Positions 48,684 to 58,881 of a stretch of 64,000 nt of DNA are shown here, piece after piece. The stretch is from NCBI RefSeq assembly GCF_010119205.1, contig NZ_WRXM01000001.1:806001-870000 (forward strand), written 5' to 3'. A model generated the notes under the pieces. The model had not been told where the DNA came from. It did not search any database and saw only the letters and a list, made by a program, of their open reading frames with translations. The translations under genes were made by a program, and so were the position numbers. How positions within the stretch are numbered: position 1 is the first letter of the stretch; every line of letters begins with the position of its first letter. This stretch comes from Haloarcula limicola. Its GTDB lineage: Archaea > Halobacteriota > Halobacteria > Halobacteriales > Haloarculaceae.

Positions 48684-49136
48684 GTGCAAGAGTTCGAGCG
48701 CAAACAGCTCTTAGAGCGCATCGAACGGGAGGGCGCGACCGTCGGTGCCGAGATCCCCGACGAGATCACCGTCCAGGGAGAGGACATCGACCTGCGGTCG
48801 TTCGTCTTCGAGATCAAGCGCCGGGACACCGTCCCGGCCGGAGAGCGAGAGCGCGTCGAGCAGGCGAAGCGGAATCTGCGGCGCGAGCGCATCGAGCGCA
48901 AGGAACGCATCGAGGACGGCGGAGTGAGCTACGAGGAGGGCGAGGCGCTGGCCGAGGCCGTCATCGGCATCGACCGGGCGCTGAACGCGCTCGAACAGCT
49001 CGGTCCCGCGAACCTCGAACAGGAGGCGAAGACGCAGGAGACCGCCGACCAGAAGCGCTGGATGAAGTTCCTGCGGAAGGCGCTGGGTCACGAGGACGCC
49101 GATTCCGGCACGGGTCGTGCCGGGCGAGGGAGATAA
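48684..49136 (+). CDS. DUF5788-family haloarchaeal protein
   Basis: A 150-residue, mostly helical and highly charged protein: MQEFERKQLLERIEREGATV, LRSFVFEIKRRDTVPAGERERVEQAKRNL, then KERIEDGGVSYEEGEALAEAVIGIDRALNALEQL. It matches a conserved haloarchaea-specific family, which I believe is DUF5788, of unknown role. The start is a GTG at 48684. It precedes polX by one base, TAA-C-ATG, so a link to DNA repair is suggested by context. Confidence 0.75.
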   Translation: MQEFERKQLLERIEREGATVGAEIPDEITVQGEDIDLRSFVFEIKRRDTVPAGERERVEQAKRNLRRERIERKERIEDGGVSYEEGEALAEAVIGIDRALNALEQLGPANLEQEAKTQETADQKRWMKFLRKALGHEDADSGTGRAGRGR

Positions 49137-49137
49137 C

Positions 49138-50880
49138 ATGAGCCAGAACGACGAAATCGCCAGCCGACTGGAGGAGTTCGCCGACCTGCTGGAGGCACGG
49201 GGCGTCGAGTACAAACCTCGGACCTACCGGCGCGCGGCCGAGAACATCCGCGAGTACCCCGCCGCCGTCGAGGGGCTCGCCGCGGAGGGCGAAGAGGCCG
49301 TCGGCGAGATCGACGGCGTGGGCGACGCCATCTCCACGAAGGTCGTCGAGTACTTCGAGACGGGGGAAATCGAGGAACTCGAAGAGCTCCGCGCGGAGCT
49401 ACCCGTCGAGATGGAAGCCCTGACGGCGGTCGAGGGCGTCGGTCCGAAGACGGTCGGGACGCTGTACGAGGCGCTCGGCATCACGACGCTCGACGAACTG
49501 GAAGCCGCCGCCGAAGCGGGCGAGATACGGGCGGTCGAAGGGTTCGGCGAGAAGACCGAGCAGAACATCCTCGACAACGTCGACTTCGCGCGCGAGGCCC
49601 ACGAGCGGGCGCTGCTCGGCGAGGCCCGACCCTACGGCGAGCGCATCGAGGCGTACATGAGCGACGTCTCCGGCGTCGAGAAGTGCGCGCTGGGCGGCTC
49701 GATCCGGCGCTGGAAGCCGACCATCGGCGACGTGGACGTGCTCGTGGGCAGCGACGCCGAGGGGGAGGTCGTCGAGGCGTTCACCGACTGGCCGGAGGTC
49801 GACCGGGTCATCGAATCGGGCGAGACGAAGGCGAGCGTCTACGCGGGCGACGACGACGTCCGCGTGGACCTGCGTATCGTCGTTCCCGAGGAGTTCGGCG
49901 CGGCCCTGCAGTACTTCACCGGGAGCAAGGACCACAACGTCGCGGTCCGTAACCGCGCCATCGAGCGGAATCTGAAGGTCAACGAGTACGGGGTTTTCGA
50001 CGTCTCCGGCGTCGAGGACGACGACCAGCGGGCGGGCGAGCGAGTCGCCGGCGAGACCGAGGAGAGCGTCTACGAGGCCCTCGACATGGCGTGGATGGCC
50101 CCGGAGCTACGGGAGAACCGCGGCGAAGTGGAGGCCGCGGCGAACGACGACCTCCCGGACCTGCTGGAGACGGACGACGTTCGCGGCGACCTCCACACGC
50201 ACACGGAGTGGTCCGACGGGGGACACACCATCGAGGAGATGGTCGAGGGAGCCGAAGCGTTCGGCCACGACTACATCGCTATCTCGGATCACGCGACGGG
50301 ACCGGGGATGGTCGGCGGCGTCGGCGTCTCCGACGAGGAACTTCGCGAGCAACTGGAAGAAATTGAGGCCGTCGCCGCCGAAGCGGACATCGACGTATTC
50401 AGCGGTGTCGAAGCCAACATCGCCGAGGACGGGGATATCTCCGTCGCCGACGACCTCCTGGCCGACCTCGACTGTGTGGTCGCCTCGCCGCACGCCGCCC
50501 TCGACGGCGACGGGACCGACCGGCTCGTCGCGGCCGCCGAGCATCCCGAGGTGAACGCCATCGGTCACCCGACGGGGCGCTATCTGAACCGACGGCCGGG
50601 ACTCGATCTCGACGTCGAGCGCCTCGCTGAGGTGGCCGCCGAGAACGGGACCGCCTTGGAGGTCAACGCGAGCCCCGCCCGGTTGGACCTCTCGGGGGCG
50701 GCGGTCAAGCAGGCCGTCGAGGCCGGGGCGACCATCGTCATCGACACGGACGCTCACAGCCCCGGTAACTTCGAGCAGGTCCGCTACGGCGTCCACACGG
50801 CCCGTCGCGGCTGGGCCGAGGCCGCCGACGTTCTCAACACGCGGGACACCGAAGGCGTCCGGGAGTTCCTCGATGCGTGA
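49138..50880 (+). CDS. polX: Family X DNA polymerase with PHP exonuclease domain
   Basis: A 580-residue PolX. Residues 1-150 hold the 8-kDa-like and helix-hairpin-helix units (EIDGVGDAISTKVVEYF, VEGVGPKTVGTLYEAL, VEGFGEKTEQNIL). The nucleotidyltransferase core has GGSIRRWKPTIGDVDVLV with metal ligands D198 and D200. The PHP domain begins at D351-LHTHTEWSDGG and continues with SDHATGP and NASPARLDLSG. Such enzymes fill short gaps in base-excision repair, and the PHP part is a 3'-5' exonuclease or AP-processing unit. It overlaps the Mut7-C gene by eight bases. Confidence 0.95.
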   Translation: MSQNDEIASRLEEFADLLEARGVEYKPRTYRRAAENIREYPAAVEGLAAEGEEAVGEIDGVGDAISTKVVEYFETGEIEELEELRAELPVEMEALTAVEGVGPKTVGTLYEALGITTLDELEAAAEAGEIRAVEGFGEKTEQNILDNVDFAREAHERALLGEARPYGERIEAYMSDVSGVEKCALGGSIRRWKPTIGDVDVLVGSDAEGEVVEAFTDWPEVDRVIESGETKASVYAGDDDVRVDLRIVVPEEFGAALQYFTGSKDHNVAVRNRAIERNLKVNEYGVFDVSGVEDDDQRAGERVAGETEESVYEALDMAWMAPELRENRGEVEAAANDDLPDLLETDDVRGDLHTHTEWSDGGHTIEEMVEGAEAFGHDYIAISDHATGPGMVGGVGVSDEELREQLEEIEAVAAEADIDVFSGVEANIAEDGDISVADDLLADLDCVVASPHAALDGDGTDRLVAAAEHPEVNAIGHPTGRYLNRRPGLDLDVERLAEVAAENGTALEVNASPARLDLSGAAVKQAVEAGATIVIDTDAHSPGNFEQVRYGVHTARRGWAEAADVLNTRDTEGVREFLDA

Positions 50881-51337
50881 GGCGAGCGAGCGGGACCCGC
50901 TCTTGCTCGACGTGATGCTCGGGAAACTGGCGTCCTATCTCCGGATGTGCGGCTACGACGCCGCCTACGCGCTGGACCGCGACGCCGAGGACGACGATGC
51001 GATGCTCGCGCTCGCCCACACCGAGGGCCGCCGCCTCGTGACCCGCGACGAGGGGCTGGCAAGGCAGGCACCGAACGCGGTGTTGCTCACCGAGCGCGAG
51101 GTCGAGGCGCAGCTGCGGGAACTGGCCGCGGCCGGGTTCGAGCTCGAGCTGACCGAGGAGCCGGCCCGCTGTGGCACCTGCAACGCGCCCGTCGAGCGCG
51201 TCGACCGGACCGAGCCGACTCCCGACTACGCGCCCGATCCAGCCGAGGAGTCGGTCTGGCGGTGTCGGGACTGTGGCCAGCACTTCTGGCGCGGCAGCCA
51301 CTGGGACGACGTGGCCGACACCGTCGCCGATCTGTAG
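50873..51337 (+). CDS. Mut7-C RNase-like (DUF82) protein with zinc ribbon
   Basis: A 154-residue protein. The PIN-like Mut7-C fold starts LLLDVMLGKLASYLRMCGYD (first Asp of the active site in LDVMLG), followed by TRDEGLARQ. The C-terminal zinc ribbon uses CGTCNAPV (about 100-107) and CRDCGQHFWRGSHW (about 130-143). Family members are putative RNases related to the C. elegans Mut-7 C-terminus. Co-translation with polX may be only positional, so a DNA repair role should not be assumed. Confidence 0.88.
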   Translation: MREASERDPLLLDVMLGKLASYLRMCGYDAAYALDRDAEDDDAMLALAHTEGRRLVTRDEGLARQAPNAVLLTEREVEAQLRELAAAGFELELTEEPARCGTCNAPVERVDRTEPTPDYAPDPAEESVWRCRDCGQHFWRGSHWDDVADTVADL

Positions 51338-55674: not shown

Positions 55675-55774
55675 TATCTGTGGGGCTACGGGTTCGAGCG
55701 GTCAAATATCGTTCGCCGGGCGCGATTGACCGACTCCAGAACGCTTGTAACACCGCTGGCGCTATGTGCGGGCA

Positions 55775-56254
55775 ATGACCCTCTCGGAGGAGGCCCGCGA
55801 GCGACTCGCGGACATCGTCGAGCGCCAGCCGACGAAGAACGGCGAGTTGCAGGAACTGTGGGACATGGACAGCGGCAGCGAGGTCCACCAGTACCTCGAA
55901 TCCGAACTGAAGGAGTACTACTACCGCAACGAGGACAGCCTCATCTGTGCGACGCCGGAAGCGACCGCGCTGATAGACGGCGAGGACTCCGACCGCGTCC
56001 AGACCATCGCGGTCACGCCGTTGCAGGCCGCCATCGTCGAGGTCATCGCCGGTCCCGACGAGGAGAGCCAGAGCGTCGTCTCCGTGTTGCACGCCCTGCG
56101 CGAGGCCGGCGAGGAATCCGACGTCGACGAGGTCCGCTCGGCGCTTCGGAGCCTCGCCGATAAGGGCATCGTCGAGACGGTCCAGAAGACGGTGCCGACC
56201 TTTCGGCTGGCCGTCGAGCGCGAGGACGTCGACGTCGAAGTGCTCGACTCGTAG
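55775..56254 (+). CDS. DUF5797-family haloarchaeal protein (predicted winged helix)
   Basis: A 159-residue protein: MTLSEEARERLADIVERQPT, then KNGELQELWDMDSGSEVHQYLESELKEYYYRNEDSLICATPEA, and a second half with VLHALREAGEESDVDEVRSALRSLADKGIVETV. Both halves resemble winged-helix units, suggesting DNA binding. It matches a conserved haloarchaeal family, which I believe is DUF5797. Partner genes or targets are unknown. The start at 55775 gives the family N-terminus. It is convergent with the DUF5787 gene, end to end. Confidence 0.78.
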   Translation: MTLSEEARERLADIVERQPTKNGELQELWDMDSGSEVHQYLESELKEYYYRNEDSLICATPEATALIDGEDSDRVQTIAVTPLQAAIVEVIAGPDEESQSVVSVLHALREAGEESDVDEVRSALRSLADKGIVETVQKTVPTFRLAVEREDVDVEVLDS

Positions 56255-57286
56255 TCACTTCTCCGCGAGCCCCGGCCGGGACCGACGGCGACGCCGATCG
56301 AGCAAGCGCTTGATCGCCGCGCCGGGACCGCCCTCGATGGGCCACCCGCGCGTGCGCCAGACCGGCGGTTCCGGCTCGTACTCGTGACAGGACCCGCGAC
56401 ACTCTTTCTGCGTGGGCAGTCGCTCTTTGGCCGCACAGTGAGGGTAGACGCCGGTTTCGTCGGCCCGCAACCGGAAGTGCCGACAGTCCGGACGCATCGT
56501 CTCCGCGTAGGCGCGCCAGCCGCGCTCGTACGCTCGCTCGGCGATCGCCAGTCGCTTCTCGGCCTTCCAGTCGGGGTCGGCGTACTCGAAGCGGGCGGCG
56601 CTGGCGTCGTCGGTCGGCCGGTCGAGGATGCGAGTTCCGGGGTCGGAAACGGCGAGCGTGCGCGGCTGCCACACCGGGTCGGCGGTGCCGCGCTCGGCGT
56701 CGACGGTCAGGACGCCCGCGGCGGCGGGAAAATCGGAGAGCAGTATCGGCTCGATGCGCTCGCCCGTCGCCGCCGTCGCCACCCACACCTCGTCCGCCAG
56801 CCCCAGCGCCACGTCGCGTTCGAGCTGGTCCGCGAGGTCGCGGGCGGCGCTCGCCGAGAGGTCGGGCTTGTTCTCGATCGCGACGATGCGGCGGAGCCAG
56901 TCGGGATACTCGCGACGGCGGCGAATCTCGATGCGGTTGCCCCGCTTTCGCGTCTCCAACGCGTCCCGGTCGGCGGCCTCGTGGATGGACTCGCGGACGT
57001 ACCGCCACGGATAGCCGGGGTCCGGCAGCGCGTCGCGGTAGAACTGCCAGTCCGCCGGGGCGTGTCGCAGGACGTGCAAGAGGTCCGAATCGAACGCCGT
57101 CGCTCCGAACTCGGCCCGTCGGCGCAGCCCGTCGGGGTCGCATTCGAGAATCAGCGTGTCCCAGCGGCGGTACTTCGTCCCCAGCTGGCGGGCGACGAAC
57201 ACCGCCGAGTCGTCCCGGGCGGGCGACCACTCGCGCTCTGCCCACTGGCAGACACAGAGTTCGAATGCGAACTCGCTTGCCGTCAC
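56255..57286 (-). CDS. DUF5787-family protein, possible Fe-S PD-(D/E)XK nuclease
   Basis: A 343-residue haloarchaeal protein. YPDWLRRIVAIENKPDL (127-143) has a PD...ExK arrangement, with D129, E138 and K140, as in restriction-fold nucleases. Cysteines near both ends, C11/C13 (LCVCQWAERE) and C268, C284, C296 and C300, recall the [4Fe-4S] staple of Cas4/AddB-type nucleases. I believe this is DUF5787. The nuclease reading is my inference. The start is a GTG at 57286. The final Arg-rich tail suggests nucleic-acid contact. It directly abuts the convergent DUF5797 gene. Confidence 0.7.
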   Translation of the reverse strand: MTASEFAFELCVCQWAEREWSPARDDSAVFVARQLGTKYRRWDTLILECDPDGLRRRAEFGATAFDSDLLHVLRHAPADWQFYRDALPDPGYPWRYVRESIHEAADRDALETRKRGNRIEIRRRREYPDWLRRIVAIENKPDLSASAARDLADQLERDVALGLADEVWVATAATGERIEPILLSDFPAAAGVLTVDAERGTADPVWQPRTLAVSDPGTRILDRPTDDASAARFEYADPDWKAEKRLAIAERAYERGWRAYAETMRPDCRHFRLRADETGVYPHCAAKERLPTQKECRGSCHEYEPEPPVWRTRGWPIEGGPGAAIKRLLDRRRRRSRPGLAEK

Positions 57287-58548: not shown

Positions 58549-58881
58549 ATGCCGTTCGTCACGACCCTGACACTCACGAGTGGGGACCGCCACCGCCTCG
58601 ACGACGTCGTGGCGGACATCAAAGACCGCGCCGAACGGAAAGGCGTCGAACTCAAGGGACCGCACCCGAAGCAACCGACGGAACTGCGCGTTCCGCAGTC
58701 GAAGACGCTCGGTCCGGACGGCGGCCGCTTCGAGCCGTGGAACTACACCGTCTACACGCGCACCATCGAGATCGTCGGCTACGAGGACTTCGCCCGCGAC
58801 GTGACCGAGGATTCGTTCCCGCCGGGCGTCCACGTCGAGGCCGGCATCGAGCAGCGCACGCAGGTCGGTAGCGGATCGTAA
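58549..58881 (+). CDS. uS10-like ribosomal protein paralogue
   Basis: A 110-residue protein with the S10 fold: TLTLTSGDRHRLDDVVADIKDRAERKGVELKGPHPKQPTE (residues 6-45) and YTVYTRTIEIVGYEDFARDV. The archaeal ribosomal S10 is normally encoded next to elongation factor 1-alpha, so this copy is a paralogue, likely of the uS10/mL48 group kept in haloarchaea. Its function is unknown. A TATA-like CTTTTAGC sits about 30 bases upstream. Confidence 0.8.
   Translation: MPFVTTLTLTSGDRHRLDDVVADIKDRAERKGVELKGPHPKQPTELRVPQSKTLGPDGGRFEPWNYTVYTRTIEIVGYEDFARDVTEDSFPPGVHVEAGIEQRTQVGSGS

Follow-up and report, generated by a model that had tools for sequence, protein, structure and literature searches.

Several described groups of proteins stand close to the family analysed here. 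Cas4 and AddB possess a PD-(D/E)XK core, and the AddB helicase-nucleases carry a helicase-like region in the same chain. FEN1 is a known client of PCNA. The MmcB-type repair proteins and SPO1766 (3dnx), which we take to be itself a member of the MmcB family, are short chains, of 146 residues for 3dnx and 149-192 residues for the viral MmcB rows. XisH and the type IIS enzyme PaqCI are connected, according to their entry titles, with recombination control and restriction, respectively. For NucS/EndoMS and XPF, the parts consulted of one publication describe an interaction with PCNA that is needed for specificity and activity (PMC7776575).

The window, i.e. the whole stretch of 64,000 nucleotides of Haloarcula limicola DNA that was analysed, contains a gene of the family DUF5787, one of two paralogues referred to below as copy A (the window gene) and copy B. 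By fold, DUF5787 is closest to the MmcB-type proteins and SPO1766 (Z 11.8 over 142 residues), but these chains are short and DUF5787 has no MmcB-like Pfam row. Its core aligns with XisH and PaqCI over 109-154 residues (Z 8.7-10.5), although domain context and role differ. The likeness to Cas4 and AddB consists of (i) the PD-(D/E)XK core, (ii) a cysteine near the first helix and (iii) cysteines behind the core, whereas the differences relate to the number of cysteines (five), their spacing, the loss of C13 in some copies B, the inserted winged helix and, for AddB, the missing helicase domain. Copy B resembles the PCNA-docked archaeal nucleases NucS/EndoMS, XPF and FEN1 in combining a predicted nuclease core with a C-terminal PIP motif; copy A, which has no such motif, does not. 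DUF5787 is an addition to the known PD-(D/E)XK superfamily, and the features tested do not identify it as Cas4 or AddB. The best explanation, with a probability of about 0.6, is that DUF5787 represents a haloarchaeal pair of PD-(D/E)XK DNA-maintenance endonucleases, one of them tethered to PCNA, with cleavage, residue roles, PCNA binding, metal and substrate all being proposed.

The DUF5787 gene and its family

56255..57286, minus strand: DUF5787 gene, copy A; 343 aa, GTG start, 81-row alignment A1; predicted PD-(D/E)XK endonuclease

The reading frame assigned to DUF5787 in the first-pass annotation of this DNA is a real gene. In the Pfam scan the window protein matches PF19100 with an E value of 5.4e-118 and 394.1 bits (residues 31-305, profile positions 2-278 of 278), the curated cut-off being 25 bits, and it is a full-length member of a family to which Pfam assigns no function. 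NCBIfam holds no model for the protein, and the Pfam scan detected no helicase domain within its 343 residues. A sequence search of the PDB with the single protein returned three weak rows, all unrelated, and the search with the DUF5787 profile gave no match. Among 81 DUF5787 members scanned with Pfam up to E 1, no PD-(D/E)XK family reached a useful E value, PDDEXK_7 being matched in 1/81 (E 0.07), and the MmcB-like family gave no row up to the same threshold. The literature search yielded no paper that mentions DUF5787 by name and none recognised as dealing with these proteins; the accessible part of a review on replication and repair in Haloferax contains no word starting with "DUF".

Predicted fold

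AlphaFold2 was run on alignment A1 (copy A), and the best of five models was used (pLDDT 79.5, pTM 0.79). The other four models reached 54-57, and since only one of the five is good, the model has to be read with caution. Its main elements are the following:

57230..57274, minus strand: helix alpha1, residues 5-19 (DSSP H5-19), holding E9 and, as the N-terminal cysteine, C13 (both invariant, 81/81 each)
57140..57166, minus strand: strand beta2, residues 41-49 (E41-49), with D43 (81/81; 172/172 in copies A and B)
56903..57106, minus strand: inserted winged-helix module, residues 61-128 (H67-75, H83-86, H94-106, E110-115, E118-123)
56867..56896, minus strand: strand beta3 with the ExK motif E138-N139-K140, residues 131-140 (E131-139; 81/81)
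56804..56854, minus strand: helix alpha2, residues 145-161 (H145-161), with Q154 and D158 (81/81)

A further strand (E28-36) lies between alpha1 and beta2 of copy A, while alpha2 is followed by a strand (E166-172) and then by a tail with a helix (H238-255) and a hairpin at 271-284. By this model DUF5787 is predicted to adopt the PD-(D/E)XK core, alpha-beta-beta-beta-alpha-beta, and to carry the winged helix as an insert that separates the two catalytic strands, of which one bears D43 and the other E138 and K140. The family would thereby offer a clear-cut example of a DNA-binding module placed between two catalytic PD-(D/E)XK strands.

The restriction fold, for which the first-pass annotation had proposed to check such a model, is present in the prediction. 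The best VIA-align match is 3dnx (Z 11.8, 142 aligned, rmsd 4.6), followed by two PaqCI entries among 8em1 and 8epx (Z 10.5, 154 aligned, rmsd 3.8; Z 9.4, 136 aligned, rmsd 3.5), two XisH entries among 2okf and 2inb (Z 8.9, 110 aligned, rmsd 2.7; Z 8.7, 109 aligned, rmsd 2.6) and AF2093 (Z 8.4, 107 aligned, rmsd 2.8). Residues 61-126 gave many VIA matches to winged helices of the MarR/ArsR type, with Z up to 8.6. Foldseek against the PDB produced no row at E <= 0.001; PaqCI ranked first (probability 0.25), followed mostly by winged helices. In the Foldseek search of viral models, ranks 1, 3 and 6 went to entries bearing the name of MmcB-type repair proteins, at probabilities of 0.96-1.00 and E values of 1.3e-3 to 2.3e-2. 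Cas4 and AddB are absent from the best 50 VIA-align rows, which were restricted to chains ranked by Foldseek, so that this absence proves nothing. Of the original proposal of a Cas4/AddB-like nuclease, the nuclease half is retained, on the fold and on E138 and K140 (81/81), and the Cas4/AddB half cannot be kept in the form given.

Active-site residues

The residues that never change in the 81 orthologues of A1 are E9, C13, R40, D43, T44, E138, N139, K140, D142, Q154, D158, C268, C284, C296 and C300. When the set is extended to 135 rows of copy A and 37 of copy B, D43, E138, Q154 and D158 are each present in 172/172, and K140 in 171/172, the sole exception being an asparagine in the copy B of locus L227 (genome G114). 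The ExK motif of that protein reads E-N-N, the only lysine-less row of the 172, and the protein may be inactive or the reading a sequencing error.

The pattern first read as PD...ExK comprised D129, E138 and K140. Conservation bears out E138 and K140, found in 81/81 orthologues, and not D129, whose column contains D in 60 orthologues, E in 8, A in 6, N in 5, G in 1 and S in 1. Since D129 varies in this way, it is not the catalytic Asp; it is also located just before beta3, at the far end from E138 and K140, and it was ruled out for this role. The catalytic Asp is probably D43, the proposed metal-binding residue. In the model D43 is placed where the second strand begins and E138 and K140 where the third ends, and these residues are taken as neighbours because the strand ends adjoin in the antiparallel hairpin of the AlphaFold prediction. 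The arrangement characteristic of PD-(D/E)XK enzymes, in which beta2 carries an Asp at its beginning and beta3 ends in (D/E)xK, would be provided by D43, E138 and K140.

Conserved cysteines and the putative metal site

56387..56485, minus strand: four-cysteine tail C268-X15-C284-X11-C296-X3-C300, each cysteine 81/81 in A1 and 172/172 in copies A and B; putative metal-binding site

An iron-sulphur staple of the Cas4/AddB kind, formed by C11 or C13 with C284, C296 and C300, had been suggested in the first-pass annotation. C13, C284, C296 and C300 are indeed kept in 81/81 orthologues; C11, which is a cysteine in 6/81 only, was rejected as a conserved cysteine, and C268 (81/81) had been overlooked. 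C13 is present in 135/135 copy-A and 34/37 copy-B rows, and in the remaining three copies B (L129, L216 and L224) it is replaced by S or A while all four C-terminal cysteines are kept.

Haloarchaeal Cas4 rows, aligned without L144 and L158 because the starts of these two appeared misplaced, contain a cysteine close to the N-terminus and C-X2-C-X5-C towards the C-terminus, from which the DUF5787 spacing, C-X15-C-X11-C-X3-C, differs; the Cas4 pattern of an N-terminal cysteine with C-X2-C-X5-C behind the core was not found in DUF5787. When the A+B alignment was compared with Cas4 (PF01930) by hhalign, the probability was 0.1% (E 0.47), and a Cas4 identity by profile was rejected on this value. 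Cas_Cas4 gave no Pfam row up to E 1 among the 81 DUF5787 members, and no PF01930 match was found in the genome from which the window derives. What survives of the staple proposal is the conservation of the cysteines; the spacing, the Cas4 profile and the behaviour of C13 in copy B speak against it.

An enzyme of the Cas4/AddB type, in which C13 and three C-terminal cysteines would hold one [4Fe-4S] cluster stapling the nuclease domain for end resection, is considered unlikely. Its cysteine count already disagrees, as a staple needs four and DUF5787 conserves five, and to this are added the unlike spacing, the profile comparison, the lack of a helicase domain and the three copies B in which C13 is missing while the other four cysteines stay. 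It draws on the position of C13 on alpha1, comparable to the early N-terminal cysteine of the haloarchaeal Cas4 rows, on the location of the remaining cysteines C-terminal to the core in the model, and on the presence of C13 in every copy-A row and in most copy-B rows. Since C13 is kept in 135/135 copy-A rows, an iron staple may exist in copy A specifically, judging from the alignment.

A site built by the tail alone, with zinc or an iron-sulphur cluster, is favoured because L129, L216 and L224 lose C13 and keep the other four cysteines. The corresponding explanation is a variant of the best one and differs from it at the metal site alone: DUF5787 would be a PD-(D/E)XK protein with an all-C-terminal site C268/C284/C296/C300, most likely for zinc, and C13 would be a mere core residue. 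The chance of this is put at slightly below even. The four cysteines are found in 172/172 rows although C13 is not invariant, and C268 and C284 flank the predicted hairpin, but the tail modelled alone is poor (pLDDT 69, pTM 0.49) and has no PDB match at Z >= 2. Weak matches to DUF7140 occur in 29/81 members (best E 0.0034; residues 268-290 of the window protein) and agree with a self-contained tail, DUF7140 being, however, itself of unknown function; the retention of C13 throughout copy A also counts against this variant.

Distribution and two paralogues

In the order sample, DUF5787 is present in 284/293 Halobacteriales genomes and in 253/255 of those of good quality. The nine genomes without it (four of family f38, four of family f41, and G134) are mostly small, and G134 also has no DUF5797. 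Of the 284, only seven (G398, G404, G406, G421, G435, G436 and G500) encode fewer than two copies. In the phylum sample 81/392 genomes match, among the matches listed, which do not include the weakest; 80 of them exceed the cut-off and all of these belong to the order, and the one outside is weak. The search for relatives outside Halobacteriales returned a single weak row, in G227 (E 2.9e-4), with lower matches in G134 and G003. The G227 row is taken as probable chance; it covers the C-terminal part of the model only, in a long frame overlapped by other open frames, and its translated stretch contains no recognisable ExK or cysteine pattern. Viral contigs gave 29 pattern hits, with no DUF5787 relative among them.

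The second copy of the same genome (copy B) is located outside the window, at G000:C2:801432-802211, and is 33% identical to copy A. Its reading frame (L113:5322-6275, minus strand, 318 aa) ends in RRRRQSGLDRFG, a tail of the PCNA-binding type. Copies were assigned to A or B by the best tblastn score. The copy-B rows represent part of the second copies, 17 from one fetch of 20 regions and 20/20 from another; in the first fetch L122 and L127 turned out to be copy A, and L132 came from a wrongly guessed contig. As L002 repeats L113, copy B is counted as 37 rows and not 38. Among the copy-A rows, 135 in all, 126 tails are distinct. In a tree of 40 of the 135 copy-A rows and the 37 copy-B rows, A and B form separate clades joined by one branch with a support of 100/100, the bootstrap not having settled. 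According to their sequences, A and B are two ancient clades.

PCNA-type motif of copy B

The consensus of the PIP motif is given, in the parts consulted of PMC2737543, as QxxI/L/MxxFF/Y, usually at the extreme terminus, and the PIP motifs of Haloferax polymerases deviate in the last aromatic residue, according to excerpts of the same paper and of PMC3504372. Within the last 30 residues, a PIP-like Q..[LIVM]..[FYW] was identified in 37/37 distinct tails of copy B, which span seven families of the order, and in 0/135 copy-A rows; the window copy A has no QxxI/L/MxxF(F/Y) at its extreme terminus. The copy-B tails mostly read QSGLDRF or QAGLDRF, with a variable last aromatic position, and the FEN1 tails used as a positive control read QTGLDRWT, or near it, in 20/20 haloarchaeal rows.

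The background was estimated with the last 12 residues, with [LIM] in the central position, and with open reading frames of at least 150 aa from the fetched loci that passed a GC3 filter, one not passed by some of the copy-B genes. The 674 filtered frames gave 15 motif matches, 14 of which are copy B. The terminal motif of copy B is of the PCNA-binding (PIP) type, and copy B would be expected to bind the clamp. The fifteenth match is an apparent D12-class DNA adenine methyltransferase, identified by reading its sequence (L127:7230-8267, plus strand); it lies beside a copy-A gene, has the PIP-like end QTGLGEFSE, and may act on the clamp.

Proposed mechanism

Three lines of evidence converge on genome-maintenance DNA nucleases: the fold predicted for copy A, the invariant residues of the proposed metal site, and the PIP motif in the sequences of its sister, copy B. 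DUF5787 would be a metal-dependent DNA endonuclease special to haloarchaea, with two ancient paralogues. Its active site would consist of D43, E138 and K140, with E9 from alpha1 and Q154 from alpha2; the inserted winged helix would grip duplex DNA beside it, and a structural metal, either zinc or an iron-sulphur cluster, would be bound by the C-terminal cysteines. Copy B would dock on PCNA through the PIP motif at its C-terminus and cut aberrant or branched DNA at sites of replication or repair, as NucS/EndoMS or XPF, and copy A, the window gene, would act as the clamp-independent sister.

A wider and more tentative proposal is that the two near-universal paralogues, each with a core split by a winged helix and a metal-bound cysteine tail, form a genome-maintenance nuclease system of their own. 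Copy B would then work on PCNA at forks or lesions with copy A as its clamp-independent partner, and the pair would fill a repair or replication step to which no haloarchaeal enzyme has been assigned. A near-universal, unstudied pair of predicted nucleases in genetically tractable archaea would join the PCNA-docked FEN1, XPF and NucS. Given the invariant catalytic residues and the PIP motif, the question can be tested in laboratory strains of Haloferax volcanii.

Gene neighbourhoods

55766..56254, plus strand: DUF5797 gene (PF19110, E 3e-72), tail to tail with DUF5787; the two stop codons adjoin at 56254/56255
49117-50880: PolX-type gene with thumb, HHH and PHP domains, about 5.4 kb from DUF5787 with other genes between

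The neighbour described earlier as lying end to end with DUF5787 is confirmed as the convergent DUF5797 gene. The nearness to polX holds loosely, given the distance of about 5.4 kb, and is not a general feature, a PolX relative being found in the flanks of 20/80 related loci only. One flank of DUF5787 encodes a hydrophobic protein of 139 aa that has no Pfam family, a NUDIX protein, an S10-like protein and an M20 peptidase, the other a CARDB protein and genes of the ABC exporter type; a Mut7-C RNase gene lies at about 5 kb. In the 80 copy-A loci, with flanks of up to 5 kb and some shorter, the neighbours are a convergent DUF5797 (71), NUDIX (62), S10-like (61), M20 (56), Mut7-C (21) and PolX (20) genes.

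DUF5797 occurs in 32/196 genomes of the phylum, every one belonging to the order; several of these carry it well away from DUF5787, and the adjacency is broken in several genomes of family f4 and in G180. An operon logic drawn from the adjacency (71/80) was rejected on these exceptions; the relatedness of the genomes alone can account for the linkage.

The 37 copy-B loci contain genes of the aIF2-gamma type (22), the RNA polymerase E' type (20) and the metallo-beta-lactamase type (18), named from Pfam rows or read off the sequence. The frequent position of copy B beside translation and RNA polymerase-type genes, like the structure lists filled mostly with winged-helix matches, would suit a non-catalytic or RNA-directed protein, whose fold binds nucleic acid as a winged-helix regulator or RNA-processing factor and cuts no DNA. 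Such a role is quite improbable: the proposed metal-site residues, which binding alone does not require, are invariant bar one row, and the PCNA-type motif of copy B points to DNA. For the nuclease pair preferred here, neither the copy-A nor the copy-B neighbourhood indicates a pathway, and there is no repair operon.

Two minor observations concern the window itself. At 48684-51337 (plus strand), a DUF5788 gene overlaps the start of the PolX-type gene and is followed by the Mut7-C RNase gene, a possible repair cluster. Near DUF5787, positions 58549-58881 (plus strand) encode a stand-alone S10-family protein of 110 aa, which is kept in 61/80 loci.
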